Shown here one piece after another: positions 7,202-19,370 of a stretch of 31,352 nt of DNA. Position 1 is the stretch's first letter; each line of letters begins with the position of its first letter. The notes under the pieces are model-generated. The model had not been told where the DNA came from, did not search any database, and worked only from the letters and a program-made list of their open reading frames with translations. The position numbers and the translations under genes were made by a program. Source of the stretch: a virus; the IMG/VR virus record IMGVR_UViG_3300045125_000090, positions 1 to 31,352 of that record. One strand, given 5' to 3'.

Positions 7202-7747
7202 ATGGCAACTTTATATAATCATTCTCATTTACTTTCAATACGACGGGCATGGTTGGTTCTGCGGAAAACCAATGCAATTGTTTTTAGACAATGATGGAAA
7301 AATTATAAACAAATAAAATAGAATATGGAGTTTATAATAAAATTATTGATCTTGAATTTAAAAAAGTTTTATTCATAAAAAAACATAATATTGGTCTTGG
7401 TGATATAATTGATTGGATAACTAGAATTACTAGAATTAAAGATTTAATAATTTATCTAACTAAAGAAATTGTGGTTGTGAAGCCAGAAGAATAAAATTTA
7501 ATAAATGGTTTAAATTTTATTGGTTTTCTATAAAGTTTAGAGAAATTTATGCTGATGATTATAATATTATTCCTAAGCATAAAAAATTAATTCAAAATAT
7601 AGTTCCAGTTCAAGAGCCACCAAGAAAGACAGACAACAAGAGCACAGAAAAGTAAATGTAGTAGAAAAACCTGTCACAGAAGCACAGGTTAAAAAATCAT
7701 GTAATTGTGGCCGCAAGACGTTGACAAATTTAAAAAAAGGAGTATAA
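7202..7747 (+). CDS. Small phage protein with CGC motif, frame-broken
   Basis: Starts MATLYNHSH at ATG 7202, with AAAGGTG about 10 nt upstream overlapping the giant gene's end. Three or more indels break it. Joined pieces give GLGDIIDWITRITRIKDLII and NCGCEARRIKFNKWFKFYWF, then a tail with PPRKTDNKSTEK, KPVTEAQVKKSCNCGRKT and the stop TAA at 7745-7747. The 'GLGD.i..iT..t.IK.li..l....CGC..RR.k.N' signature occurs in small uncharacterised proteins of T4-like and other large phages. The paired CxC motifs suggest metal binding. Length about 180 residues; function unknown. Confidence 0.5.
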
Positions 7748-7748
7748 T
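7721..7748 (+). promoter_or_regulatory. Sigma70-type promoter abutting the Sm-like gene
   Basis: TTGACA (7721-7726), 16-nt spacer, TATAAT (7743-7748): a near-consensus promoter within the last codons of the preceding gene. Only six bases separate the -10 box from the ATG at 7755, so the predicted start of transcription falls at or next to the start codon. AAGGAG (7737-7742) lies just before the -10 box and would be outside the transcript. Confidence 0.7.
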
Positions 7749-7754
7749 ATAAAC

Positions 7755-8030
7755 ATGAAAGACGCATTAGTTAAATTTAGATATGGCGAAGAAGTTATCT
7801 GTCAGTTAGAGGATCTGGGAATCAGAGTATCATATAAAAATTGTGCTACTTTGCTTCCTATGGAGAATCAAAGTTGGCATCTGGTAACTTGGATGCCATA
7901 CAGTAATGCTAGATATGGAGTTTCAATAAACAAAAACGATGTCTTATTTGTTGTTGGACTTGAAAAAGATATGCAGCAGTATTATGATAAATGGAAAACA
8001 GCCTTGAATGGACAAAAGATGAATACATAA
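7755..8030 (+). CDS. Small Sm/Lsm-like protein
   Basis: A 91-residue intact protein starting MKDALVKFRYGEEVICQLED. The N-terminal 'vkF.yGEEVicql' followed by 'YKNCATLLP', 'LVTWMPYS' and 'INKNDVLFVV' matches the two-part Sm fold (Sm1/Sm2) of a small protein family frequent in marine T4-like phages; the tail DMQQYYDKWK is typical of those phage members. Sm proteins form rings on RNA; whether this one does is inference. The gene has its own strong promoter with no leader room. AAGGAG lies 12 nt from the ATG, a poor spacing if a longer transcript is used. It is unbroken, unlike most neighbours. Confidence 0.6.
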   Translation: MKDALVKFRYGEEVICQLEDLGIRVSYKNCATLLPMENQSWHLVTWMPYSNARYGVSINKNDVLFVVGLEKDMQQYYDKWKTALNGQKMNT

Positions 8031-8031
8031 T

Positions 8032-8039
8032 CTAAATAA
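8032..8039 (+). promoter_or_regulatory. Late promoter box CTAAATAA
   Basis: CTAAATAA two bases after the Sm-like gene's stop and five bases before the ATG at 8045. No Shine-Dalgarno lies between, so the transcript would be essentially leaderless. Confidence 0.55.
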
Positions 8040-8044
8040 ATTTG

Positions 8045-8326
8045 ATGTATAAGGGAGAATACTCAAAACTTAACCCCACCGGACTGAAAATACTATATCA
8101 GTCCGGTGATGTTGTTTTATTTGAAGGTAATTTATATAAGGCTCAAAAAATTACTCAATTATCGCCATTTCAAGATTCTTTGGCTTGGTCTTTTATTGGT
8201 GAAAGCAGATTATTCTCTGGTATTGAGCCACCAATTGATCCAGTGGAAGGCCAGCAATGGGAAAAAGACGGAGTAGTCTATACCTATTATTTTGATGGCG
8301 ACAATTACTCTTGGGTTGAGTTTTGA
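8045..8326 (+). CDS. Small virion-type protein with carbohydrate-binding-like motif
   Basis: A 93-residue intact protein beginning MYKGEYSKLNPTGLKILYQS. SGDVVLFEGNLYKAQKITQL and LAWSFIGES resemble the 'Y..Gd.V.y.g..Y.a......p....W' pattern of small chitin-binding-like (CBM5/12-type) modules. The second half, GIEPPIDPVEGQQWEKDG ending DNYSWVEF, resembles phage tail-fibre ends of the 'PP..P..G..W....g..y.y....WvE' kind. Likely a late virion decoration or fibre component that contacts the cell surface (inference). An upstream TTG (8042) is in frame but the ATG fits better. It abuts the convergent minus-strand gene with no gap. Confidence 0.55.
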   Translation: MYKGEYSKLNPTGLKILYQSGDVVLFEGNLYKAQKITQLSPFQDSLAWSFIGESRLFSGIEPPIDPVEGQQWEKDGVVYTYYFDGDNYSWVEF

Positions 8327-9660
8327 TTAAACTGTAATTAACAGTTTCAATACATTATTTTTTTCAAACTTTAAATAAAATGCTGATGGAGCATTCTGAT
8401 TTCGTAAAAATATAAAAGAGCAACCGTCGAAACCGGGAACACCGTTTAAATAATAATAATCATTTAGTGGAATAGAACAATCTTCATCATAGAATGGTAG
8501 AATTCTCCATCCTACCAAAGATGAATCCGAAAGATCTATTTTGATATTTGGCATTGTCGCTGTAACATTAGTATCGTAAATTTTAGTGTTAGTTACAATA
8601 TTGTCAATATAAAGCGATAATAACCTGAGTTGTCTGCGGAACAATAGCAGCATTTATATCTTCTATTGTCAATTCATTTCTGTAACCTATTTTTGCATAT
8701 GAATAATAATCTACGGATACTGATAATTTATCATAAGCATATGGATTTAAAACTGCTTTAAAATTATCTGTTTCACGAGTAGCATACCAATCGTAATAAT
8801 TGGTAGAATCTGTTTTAGCCCTTGAATATCTTTGGTGTAGATTTTGATCTACAAATATATCCACAGTTTCTTGATTGGTATTGATCTTTTTAACTACCCC
8901 ATTTTGGAATTTGCTTTGGGATAATGTGTTCAAATCTGGAACACCTCTCATTAAAAGATTTATTGTCTTTTTCTGAAAGTACATATTTTCATTTACAATA
9001 CTATATGCTGGATCCAGAACGACTATTTCTTGACCATTATTTAATTTGACAAAACTGTTAATTAAATAACGGTCTGTATTAGCCTTTGTATCTAAAACTT
9101 CAATGTATTCTTCAGAATTAAAATCTTCTCCATATATGCCAAAAAATTCTAAATTATAGGGTGTATCATTATTAAATTTTGAAACAAAGTATTGAGCGGT
9201 TACTCCCTTAGAAGTAGAAAAATTTAAAACTGTTTTAAAGTTATAATTTTTATATGAACCATCTGTCAGACTTGCAGAATAAGATACACCAGTAAAATTT
9301 AAAAAATTATTATAAGCACCAGTATATCCAGAAAGTTTGTACACGCCTTCAAAATTATATTTTGATTGTGTCAATTCGTCATAATAATTTCCACCAGAAA
9401 CTGCAAATGTATTTCCAGTTCCAAGTTTTGCAAAGAACCGTTTTAAAAGTTTTAAATCAGAAGCATTCGAAGTATTAGAGTAATCTAAAAAAAGTAACTC
9501 CATTTTTATATAAATTTGGAGCACTTTCCATTAATCCTTTTGTCATTGTAGGATCTGAAGTATTTCCCTACAAATTCTGTAACAAAAAGTTCTGTTGTTT
9601 TTACAACAGTTAATGCATCTTCACTTGACTTTAGCATATTTTGAAATTGTCATTGGTCAT
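8327..9660 (-). CDS. Virion structural protein, frame-broken
   Basis: One gene of about 443 codons on the minus strand. It starts at ATG 9660 in a TAATG overlap with the preceding gene's stop (MTNDNFK, then an indel, MLKSSEDALTVVKTTELFVT). A second shift leads to TMTKGLMESAPNLYKNG, joining the long piece 9524-8604 (LLFLDYSNTSNASDLKLLKR). A third shift near 8620 enters the piece 8653-8327 (LYIDNIVTNTKIYDTNVTAT), ending LLITV at 8327. It is rich in Tyr, Asn, Ser and short beta-type stretches, with no Cys cluster or membrane segment. Co-transcribed with the gene upstream from a late box, so a virion protein is likely. I do not recognise a family. Confidence 0.5.
8329..8347. other. AT-rich perfect hairpin at convergent gene ends
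   Basis: AAACTGT (8329-8335), loop AATTA, ACAGTTT (8341-8347): a perfect 7-bp stem at the meeting point of two convergent genes. There is no clear T-run, so it is at best a weak bidirectional terminator or an mRNA 3'-end structure. Confidence 0.3.
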
Positions 9661-10574
9661 TATGAAGCATAATAGGTTAGAACTTGTGATCCCTTGGCAG
9701 AAGCAAATACAGAATTTAAATTTCCAACATTTAAGAATAATTGCTCTCCGGGATCCAATTCATAACCCACCAATGAACCAGTTGTGCTGGTTCCAATGTA
9801 AATTATTTGAGTATTAATCGAAGAAGATTTTAGATTAACTCCAGCTGTGCAAGTAAACCCTGAAACAAGGGCCGCAGCAGACGCTGTAAGCGTCTTGGTT
9901 CCAGCAGTGCCGGAAGTAGGTCTTACCAGACCAAAGGCCGCTAAAGCCGAATAAACGTCGTTTACCTTGCCGTAAATAGCAGTCATGCCATTCAAAATTG
10001 CAGTATCATTAATAGCAGCTGTTCCGGAAACAGTTACTGCAACTGGAAGACCACCAGAACTTCCTTCAATTCTGATTGAAGTTGTTGCGCCTGCATTTTG
10101 AACCCCAACATTTGTTCCAACATTAACGGTAAGTGCAGCATCTTGCAGATAAACTTTTAATGCATCGCCAGATACTCCAATTGCTGTATTTCCAGTTGTG
10201 ACCAAGAGCGGAACGAATAAATGTAGAACCACCAGCACCATAAACAGTAATACTATCTCTTGTGTAGTTTCTTGCTATACCACCAGTTATAGAAACAGTT
10301 CCGCTTACACCAGATACTGCAACGGTTCCTTGAACAAATACCGGATCCCCAGCACTATTACCAACTACAATTACTGGATTTGTAAAATTTACAATATTTG
10401 CTGTAACGCCAGCAGATAAGATTACGGGAAGTGGCGCGGTTGAAGTTACCAAACTTGCACTGGATGTATTTCCAAATGCTAATTTAAAATTTGATAATGA
10501 CTTCCACTAATTTCATTAGTCTTAATGGAAGCAGTTGCGCCGGATGAAACATTAATTACAAGATTGTCTGCCAT
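9660..10574 (-). CDS. Virion structural protein, Gly/Ser/Thr/Val-rich, frame-broken
   Basis: About 304 codons, starting MADNLVINVSSGATASIKTN at ATG 10574 with GGAG 5 nt upstream and a late box. A shift near 10490 leads into NTSSASLVTSTAPLPVILSA, and another near 10200 into VTTGNTAIGVSGDALKVYLQ, ending LTYYAS at 9660. The low-complexity beta-type composition and the 'TPLPV'-like phrase are common in phage structural proteins (fibre, tip or capsid decoration). The C-terminal third (FTCTAGVNLKSSSINTQIIY) resembles a small beta-sandwich. Exact role unknown. Confidence 0.5.
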
Positions 10575-10592
10575 TTATGCTCCGAATCAAAG

Positions 10593-10600
10593 ATATTTAG
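10593..10600 (-). promoter_or_regulatory. Late promoter box CTAAATAT
   Basis: CTAAATAT on the minus strand 18 nt before ATG 10574, leaving room for a short leader with the GGAG ribosome site (10583-10580). It drives the two minus-strand structural genes and lies back to back with the gp33 promoter. Confidence 0.6.
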
Positions 10601-10613
10601 ATGTATCCAACTA

Positions 10614-10641
10614 TTGATAAATTTTATAAATGTGGTATAAT
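10614..10641 (+). promoter_or_regulatory. Sigma70-type promoter for gp33
   Basis: TTGATA (10614-10619), 16-nt spacer, TATAAT (10636-10641) with TG two bases upstream (extended -10). The -10 box overlaps an in-frame ATG at 10630, ruling that start out; the next ATG (10648) is six bases after the -10 box. Confidence 0.65.
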
Positions 10642-10647
10642 ATTACT

Positions 10648-10884
10648 ATGTATCTAGATGACAAAGCAAAATTATCGTTTTCCTCAAAAGTTCTAGAAAG
10701 AGTCCAAAAAACAAAATTATCATATATGGATTGTATACTTGAACTTTCCGAAGAAATGGGCATAGAACCATCGGCTGCTGGCAAACTTTTAACCAAGCCA
10801 ATTATTGAAAAAATTCAAGAAGAAGCAAAAGAAAAGCATCTTTTGAAAAAAACCAAAGGTAAAAAACTTCCTTTAGAGGATTGA
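10648..10884 (+). CDS. 33: Probable late-transcription coactivator gp33
   Basis: A 78-residue intact protein, MYLDDKAKLSFSSKVLERVQ. In T4, gp33 binds the beta flap of host RNA polymerase and links it to the sliding clamp gp45, activating gp55-dependent late promoters. The phrases LSYMDCILELSEEMGIEPSA and GKLLTKPIIEKIQEEAKE, and the basic end LLKKTKGKKLPLED, agree with the small gp33 proteins of marine T4-like phages. Its position directly before gp32 fits. T4 gp33 is 112 residues, so this is a short form. Start 10648 is chosen because 10630 lies inside the promoter; there is no Shine-Dalgarno, and a leaderless message is likely. The alternative is a hypothetical helical protein. Confidence 0.6.
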   Translation: MYLDDKAKLSFSSKVLERVQKTKLSYMDCILELSEEMGIEPSAAGKLLTKPIIEKIQEEAKEKHLLKKTKGKKLPLED

Positions 10885-14003: not shown

Positions 14004-14412
14004 GAAATATTTCCTCTTCCGTTAAAATTTTAAATTCTATGTTATGCTTTTGGCAAAATCTTTGAGCAGCTTCCCATTTAGCTTTATTGATTGCAAACAT
14101 TAATCTTTCTTTACCGGAAGCAGATTCTCTAAGCTTTACTTGTTTTTTTGGTTTGACTTCAATTAACATGCTCTTTTTTTGATGGGCCTGTTCCACCTGA
14201 ACTAAAAAATCTGGAATGTATCTGTGTACCTTTTTGTCCAAAGGGCTCACATATGGTATTTCAACTTCCTCAAAAGACCACTTTATTACTTTTGAATTTT
14301 CATCCAAAAATTTGCAGACTCTTCTCTCCCACAAAGAACGGCATGTTAATTCTTTCTTTGTGCCTATGTACTTATTTGGATTTTTTGGTGTAAATCTAGT
14401 TTTATAGGCCAT
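13993..14412 (-). CDS. 4: Head completion protein gp4 (TnsA-like nuclease fold)
   Basis: An intact 139-residue protein, MAYKTRFTPKNPNKYIGTKK; T4 gp4 is 150. It carries the TnsA/restriction-like core: E29 (RSLWERRV), D68 (RYIPDFLV), E85 and K87 (LIEVKPKK), spaced as in gp4 and suggesting a nuclease that trims or caps the packaged DNA end before tail joining. 'NP.KYiG....CRS.WE' is the family signature. ATG 14412 has no Shine-Dalgarno but lies 9 nt after a late box; an in-frame TTG (14418) is less likely. Confidence 0.85.
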   Translation of the reverse strand: MAYKTRFTPKNPNKYIGTKKELTCRSLWERRVCKFLDENSKVIKWSFEEVEIPYVSPLDKKVHRYIPDFLVQVEQAHQKKSMLIEVKPKKQVKLRESASGKERLMFAINKAKWEAAQRFCQKHNIEFKILTEEEIFHGN

Positions 14413-14421
14413 TTTCAAAAA

Positions 14422-14429
14422 TTATTTAG
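14422..14429 (-). promoter_or_regulatory. Late promoter box CTAAATAA for gp4
   Basis: CTAAATAA on the minus strand, 9 nt before the gp4 ATG and 12 bp from the oppositely directed box at 14442, making a compact divergent late promoter pair. Confidence 0.65.
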
Positions 14430-14441
14430 ACGCCAACTTAC

Positions 14442-14449
14442 CTAAATAA
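14442..14449 (+). promoter_or_regulatory. Late promoter box CTAAATAA for gp48
   Basis: CTAAATAA followed by 8 nt and the ATG at 14458, with no Shine-Dalgarno. The same box and 8-nt gap recur before gp25 and gp13. Confidence 0.65.
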
Positions 14450-14457
14450 TTTCATAA

Positions 14458-15252
14458 ATGGCAATTGAACTAAGATACCCTCTAACTGATATTTATGCCG
14501 CTGAAATACCCTTTTGGTGCATATTCAGCTGTTCTCCCTATTCGGTGATCAATGAATACCGAACAAGAGATGCAATAGGCATAAACGCTAATGTAAAGAT
14601 AGCATTGCCATTTACTAGTGAACCAAAAATGTCACTTAAGCATGAATTTTCCGAAGGAACCAATCCTGTTGGACCCGTTTTAAGTATTGCTGGCCTCAAG
14701 AACAGCAGTGGCGGTGAGTTGGCATTACTAGATAGACTTGCGGCACCAGCTGCTGCTTTCTATGAAGCAGCCTTTACAACAGATACCTACAGAAGATTCA
14801 GTAACGTGACTGAAGCTACAATGACCAGTGAAGCTAGAAGAAACTTTGTTTTTAGATATCTTTTTGTACCAAAAGATGATGGGGAATCAGTAGTGGTCGA
14901 TCAAATTGTGAATACTTTTAGAAATTATTCATATCCTAAAGTCGTTCCCAATCTTCCAGAAAGATCATTCCCGCAAAATCTTTGGACAATAAAGGCCATA
15001 AGTAATGCTGCTAACTCTGATTATCTTACCTCTAGTTGGCTAGGAGAGCCATTGCCTTGCGTTCTTACCAGCATGGAGGTCGATAAGGGTGATCCTAGCG
15101 ATCCCGTTTTAAAGGTATTGCCAAATACCAGAGCTGTCGCTACCTTACTTACAGTAACTTTTGCAGAGTTTGAAACTGGTACATTTGCCCCAAATTACCA
15201 GAATGGTAAATTGCTATCTAAATCAGAGGTGTCGTTTCTTGAGATGCAGTAG
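14458..15252 (+). CDS. 48: Baseplate tail-tube-cap protein gp48
   Basis: An intact 264-residue protein, MAIELRYPLTDIYAAEIPFW; T4 gp48 is 364. The C-terminal RAVATLLTVTFAEFETGTFA, after TSMEVDKGDPSDPVLKVLPN, is the beta-strand end typical of gp48/gp54-type tube-initiation proteins, and the middle YLFVPKDDGESVVVDQIVNT followed by FRNYSYPKVVPN fits. gp48 caps the hub and, with gp54, starts tube assembly. It is divergent from gp4 and followed by gp53, an order known in marine T4-like phages. One caveat: gp48 and gp54 share a fold, so the two labels in this window could be exchanged. Confidence 0.65.
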   Translation: MAIELRYPLTDIYAAEIPFWCIFSCSPYSVINEYRTRDAIGINANVKIALPFTSEPKMSLKHEFSEGTNPVGPVLSIAGLKNSSGGELALLDRLAAPAAAFYEAAFTTDTYRRFSNVTEATMTSEARRNFVFRYLFVPKDDGESVVVDQIVNTFRNYSYPKVVPNLPERSFPQNLWTIKAISNAANSDYLTSSWLGEPLPCVLTSMEVDKGDPSDPVLKVLPNTRAVATLLTVTFAEFETGTFAPNYQNGKLLSKSEVSFLEMQ

Positions 15253-19362: not shown

Positions 19363-19370
19363 CTAAATAT
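19363..19370 (+). promoter_or_regulatory. Late promoter box CTAAATAT for gp25
   Basis: CTAAATAT followed by 8 nt (TGTTGTAA) and ATG 19379, with no Shine-Dalgarno; same geometry as before gp48 and gp13. Confidence 0.65.

Follow-up and report, generated by a model that had tools for sequence, protein, structure and literature searches.

Leaderless messages and late promoters of known phages

The phage lambda promoter PRM is a sigma70 promoter that fires on the AUG of the phage regulator gene cI. The cI message is named as a leaderless mRNA (PMC9031893), most of the middle and late mRNAs of Thermus phage phiYS40 are leaderless (reviewed in PMC3594737), and phage transcripts have been remarked to be often leaderless (PMC5312081); in cells, leaderless AUG or GUG messages are common in mycobacteria and other bacteria (PMC4633059, PMC3898074). 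We found no report of leaderless mRNAs in T4-like phages in the literature (open-licence papers), and a survey of pelagimyophages reported that late-promoter prediction was unsuccessful (PMC7029224).

The viral DNA analysed here, a stretch of 31,352 nt that we call the window, and its relatives share the -10 motif of the T4 and cyanophage late promoters (TATAAATA and NATAAATA, respectively), and the relatives also encode gp55 and gp33. Like phiYS40 this would be a large phage with leaderless middle and late mRNAs, but phage and host are unrelated to that system, and the promoters responsible would be of the T4 late (gp55/gp33) and host sigma70 types, both recognized from sequence only. Lambda cI is one gene, whereas many gene families and two promoter classes are involved here; and the mycobacterial and other bacterial leaderless genes are cellular, whereas these are phage genes, with no WhiB gene in the relatives searched.

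Two sigma70-type promoters that end six nucleotides from a start codon

An earlier note on this DNA had proposed two sigma70-type promoters, in front of a small "Sm-like" ORF and of gp33, each with a 16-nt spacer and a TATAAT 6 nt before the ATG, and both exist exactly so (Table 1). Each has near-consensus -35 and -10 hexamers with a spacer in the range 16–18 nt; in the first 20 kb the Sm-like promoter is the best sigma70 match (12/12) and that of gp33 the joint second best (11/12), and in the whole window TATAAT-N6-ATG with a -35 matching in at least 5 of 6 positions occurs at just these two sites. The 6 nt between -10 box and ATG contain no Shine-Dalgarno sequence in either gene, as had been claimed for gp33.

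Table 1. Features of the window, and permuted tmRNAs of relatives; "gap" is the number of nucleotides between a promoter motif and the start codon
Feature	Position	Strand	Remarks
-35 TTGACA, Sm-like gene	7721–7726	+	16-nt spacer to -10; kept in L168, L172, L181
AAGGAG	7737–7742	+	5' of Sm-like -10; 12 nt from ATG 7755
-10 TATAAT, Sm-like gene	7743–7748	+	then ataaac (6 nt), then ATG 7755
Sm-like small ORF (phrog_527)	7755–8030	+	predicted leaderless
Late motif CTAAATA	8032–8038	+	gap 6 to ATG 8045; predicted leader 1 nt
Shine-Dalgarno GGAG, gene divergent from gp33	10580–10583	-	5 nt from ATG 10574
Late motif CTAAATA, gene divergent from gp33	10594–10600	-	gap 19 to ATG 10574; leadered contrast
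-35 TTGATA, gp33	10614–10619	+	16-nt spacer to -10
Extended -10 TGG-TATAAT, gp33	10633–10641	+	hexamer 10636–10641; then attact (6 nt), then ATG 10648; TGn-TATAAT kept in many relatives
gp33 late-transcription coactivator ORF	10648–10884	+	predicted leaderless
Late motif CTAAATA, gp4 head closure	14423–14429	-	gap 10 to ATG 14412; predicted leader 5 nt; TTG at gap 4
Late motif CTAAATA, tail tube cap	14442–14448	+	gap 9 to ATG 14458; predicted leader 4 nt
Late motif CTAAATA	19363–19369	+	gap 9 to ATG 19379; predicted leader 4 nt
Permuted tmRNA	L207:5354–5611	-	RF04321
Permuted tmRNA	L216:11942–12195	-	RF04321
Permuted tmRNA	L232:16831–17111	-	RF04321

The gp33 protein belongs to the T4-like gp33 family (phrog_254 and PF16805, E 5e-18). 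A direct tblastn search of our phages collection gave zero matches to it, and a gp33 consensus gave weak ones (31–40% identity). Its start is well placed: protein conservation begins at M1-Y2, an M-Y that is invariant in relatives. The in-frame ATG at 10630, which overlaps the promoter, was considered as the start and rejected, as it is not kept in relatives. The late motif of the divergent gene (AATATTTA/GATATTTA) is found again 5' of gp33 in relatives. The other ORF matches phrog_527, a family of unknown function, and weakly phrog_471; a Pfam search matched it to no family, and direct tblastn against the phages collection gave zero matches. The label "Sm-like" given in the earlier note is thus unsupported here and is used below only as a name.

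The coding fraction of the window (1–31,352) is 0.67, whereas in relatives it is 0.90–0.98. Many of the window's frames are broken (gp17, gp18 and gp20 are in pieces), probably by indels that are sequencing or assembly errors; the promoters are nevertheless confirmed in independent contigs.

Conservation of the gap in gp33, the Sm-like gene, gp55 and dUTPase

The earlier note had suggested asking whether relatives keep the 6-nt gap. Among relatives, which are uncultured viral contigs (counts below are of distinct upstream regions), it is kept before gp33, the Sm-like gene, dUTPase and the late sigma factor gp55 (phrog_234) despite diverged surroundings; gp55, dUTPase and the helicase mentioned below were located in the relatives, not in the window. 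For gp33 a -10 box matching in at least 5 of 6 positions lies at gap 4–7 in 46 of the 62 upstreams, and at exactly 6 in 31; in 16 our script did not detect a good -10 where one was expected. The gap is 6 in 30 of 33 dUTPase upstreams and in 35 of 59 for gp55 (27 of those 35 at a GTG start); in about 20 of the 59 the script likewise detected no good -10 where one was expected. Relatives whose gp55 begins with GTG 6 nt from TATAAT include L322, L325 and L376. Gap-6 promoters are also present at the gp41-type (DnaB-type) helicase in some genomes. Nearly all of the gap-6 dUTPase, gp55 and gp33 upstreams are missing a Shine-Dalgarno sequence in the usual position. For the Sm-like gene, TATAAT is retained at gap 6 in the close relatives L168, L169 and L172, and a -10 at the same gap is retained as TATATT in L176–L178 and as CATAAT in L181.

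Four gp33 relatives (L029, L035, L072 and L080) have a Shine-Dalgarno sequence 5–7 nt from the start and no -10 at gap 4–7; their promoter-like box lies further upstream, at a gap of about 14–16 in three and at an uncertain place in L035. Distant Sm-like relatives (L174, L182, L183 and L186–L189) have TATAAT at gap 16–17 and, after it, AGGA or AGGAG; AGGAG is also present in L190 and L194, whose -10 is weaker. When the promoter has moved upstream a Shine-Dalgarno sequence usually appears, so loss of the leader and loss of the Shine-Dalgarno sequence go together.

These comparisons bear on the idea that the promoters are real but that translation comes mostly from longer messages started upstream, through AAGGAG 7737–7742 or another site, leaderless RNA being minor. 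Such sites do occur: besides AAGGAG at the Sm-like gene, GGAG is found 10–13 nt 5' of the start in about 11 of the 62 gp33 upstreams, just upstream of weaker -10 boxes. Their spacing, however, exceeds the usual Shine-Dalgarno optimum, the window's own gp33 and nearly all gp55 and dUTPase upstreams are without such a site, and a genome-wide peak at a single exact gap (below) would be unexpected if longer messages were the rule. The earlier note held that use of AAGGAG 7737–7742 would speak against a leaderless Sm-like message; an RNA starting at 7755 would not contain that motif, and its use is unlikely, as L172/L173 and L169 no longer have it but do keep the 6-nt gap. We therefore regard translation mainly from longer messages as improbable, although AAGGAG at the Sm-like gene and the GGAG at spacing 10–13 in some gp33 relatives could serve read-through messages.

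Distances of promoter motifs from starts across related genomes

Genes were called (ATG start, at least 60 amino acids) in 11 related contigs of 22–136 kb, and motifs were counted at each distance from the starts of the resulting 1045 genes. TATAAT precedes 21 genes at gap 6, against a mean of 1.48 per other gap (Poisson P 2e-17), and the T4-type late motif TAAATA precedes 62 genes at gap 5, against a background of 3.6 (P 2e-53); these P values count related genomes as independent, and the numbers of gene families, themselves a partial correction, are the safer figures (11 families for TATAAT at gap 6 against at most 4 at any other gap, and 42 for TAAATA at gap 5 against at most 12 at other gaps). 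Of the 21 gap-6 sites, 20 have a -35 matching in at least 4 of 6 positions, with a spacer of 16 in 13 and of 17 in 6. An annotation-free count agrees, with ATG at offset 6 after TATAAT plus -35 found 34 times against 5.8 per other offset (P 9e-16). Elsewhere in these phages, genes are enriched in Shine-Dalgarno motifs 5–10 nt from the start.

A sigma70 -10 box occupies positions -12 to -7 and the T4 late TATAAATA occupies -13 to -6, so a message whose first nucleotide is that of the start codon requires a gap of 6 for the former and of 5 for the latter. The observed peaks, at 6 and 5 and thus one base apart, match what the two promoter types require: at these gaps the predicted +1 falls on the start codon, with no Shine-Dalgarno sequence between the two. 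Such sharp single-base peaks support the earlier suggestion that transcription would begin on or next to the A of the ATG.

That AT-rich upstream regions yield TATAAT near starts by chance or composition is barely conceivable. The window is 34% GC and its promoter-like sites overall are mildly above shuffles (106 vs 87), but composition does not account for a peak one base wide, for the -35 partners or for conservation across many lineages; the excess at gap 6 over the neighbouring gaps already refutes it, and the peaks are absent from the equally AT-rich T4 (35% GC). The two promoters are real, and neither is a chance match.

Among the negative controls T4, Syn9, S-CRM01, S-PM2 and phiM12, neither a gap-6 nor a gap-5 peak was seen (phiM12 has few motifs at all). 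The late motif lies about 17–28 nt from the start in T4, Syn9, S-CRM01 and S-PM2, whereas here it is mostly at 5–10. In P-SSM2 the signal is a trace at most: the late motif occurs twice at gap 5, and TATAAT once at gap 6. The pelagiphage HTVC008M is more alike in having the late peak: 11 of its called genes have the late motif at gap 5, mostly at RefSeq-annotated starts. It differs in being without a sigma70 peak at gap 6 and in having bS21 and curli genes, which are missing from the relatives here.

Late promoters of the window and its closest clade

The T4-type late motif is enriched in the relatives, which encode gp33 and gp55, and recognition of the TATAAATA-like -10 by these proteins is presumed. 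A strict gap of 5 was sought for the window's own late genes and rejected, the gaps being 6, 9, 9 and 10. The late motifs of the window, and of G001 and G002 as its closest relatives, lie at gap 6–10, mostly at 9–10, which predicts a leader of about 4–5 nt rather than none; the families of gp4 and of the tail tube cap are among the late genes with gaps of 5–10. In the window a back-to-back pair of late motifs fits within the 45 bp that separate the divergent ATGs of these two genes (14412–14458), with scant room for leaders.

The earlier note had counted the late genes among the leaderless ones and had supposed leaderless messages to be a general habit of this phage. The habit is supported, from sequence, by the peaks across the 11 relatives; for late genes of the window's own clade the claim has to be softened, because most would have a leader of 4–5 nt and some, such as the gene divergent from gp33, have a leader with a Shine-Dalgarno sequence. 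RNA might also start a few bases upstream in general, giving leaders of about 1–5 nt, too short for a Shine-Dalgarno sequence and still requiring a leaderless-like route to the ribosome. The late gaps of the close clade, most often 9–10, favour this, and sigma70 start sites can shift by 1–2 nt; the peaks of the wider clade, however, stand exactly at the zero-leader values of 6 and 5, and we judge it very unlikely.

Predicted leaderless messages and the host ribosome

The explanation that we prefer, and hold to be very probable, is that these are real sigma70-type promoters whose transcripts begin with the A (or G) of the start codon, making leaderless gp33 and Sm-like messages that are one case of a clade-wide habit. 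Start positions predicted from promoter geometry are strongly supported, and we infer that RNA actually begins at them. Early and middle genes (gp33, gp55, dUTPase and, in some genomes, the gp41-type helicase) would use TTGACA-16-TATAAT-6-start; many late genes would use a T4-type late motif at gap 5 and have no leader, and in the window's close clade many would have gap 9–10 and a leader of 4–5 nt. Both of the T4-type starters of late transcription, gp33 and (from relatives) gp55, would then be leaderless.

Engagement by 70S ribosomes or with the help of IF2 is known for leaderless mRNA, and ribosomes may engage the 5'-terminal start codon directly here in one of these ways. Since Shine-Dalgarno motifs are enriched before other genes of the same phages, the host ribosome can probably use both routes. 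In E. coli, GUG performs poorly as a leaderless start codon (PMC9031893), a point against this explanation; the predicted leaderless GTG of gp55 in many relatives is a hint on the host ribosomes.

Other clues to the host are few. A gp33 genome scan found nothing and a gp17 scan a single match, 23% identical, in an archaeal MAG contig; psbA, a mark of marine-type cyanophages, is absent from all 17 related records, which are fragments of at most 136 kb, and CsgG is in HTVC008M only. A bS21 gene is present in HTVC008M (W04; 91237–91392) and in 0 of 27 related uncultured records, so phage bS21 aiding leaderless translation was rejected as a general explanation. As a side observation, 7 of the 12 relative records searched encode a permuted (two-piece) tmRNA that passes the Rfam threshold (RF04321), namely G019, G020, G025, G026 and the three in Table 1; in those three it lies near a phage tRNA-Tyr gene.

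Implications

Placement of promoters on start codons is unusual among T4 relatives. Leaderless phage messages have so far been known from scattered cases and one Thermus phage; here their use would be clade-wide in T4-like phages and involve two promoter classes. Software that presupposes a leader, whether for calling genes or for finding promoters, will overlook such promoters and misplace starts, which may, we suggest, be why late-promoter prediction was unsuccessful in pelagimyophages (PMC7029224). How a phage copes without ribosome sites, why T4 and the cyanophages differ, and whether leaderless gp33 and gp55 set late timing can now be put to the test. It seems fairly likely that in a whole clade of uncultured T4-like phages most promoter-proximal genes, early and late, are leaderless, gp33 and gp55 among them (for gp55 often from a GUG start), and that the timing of infection may hinge on how the infected ribosomes handle leaderless mRNA.
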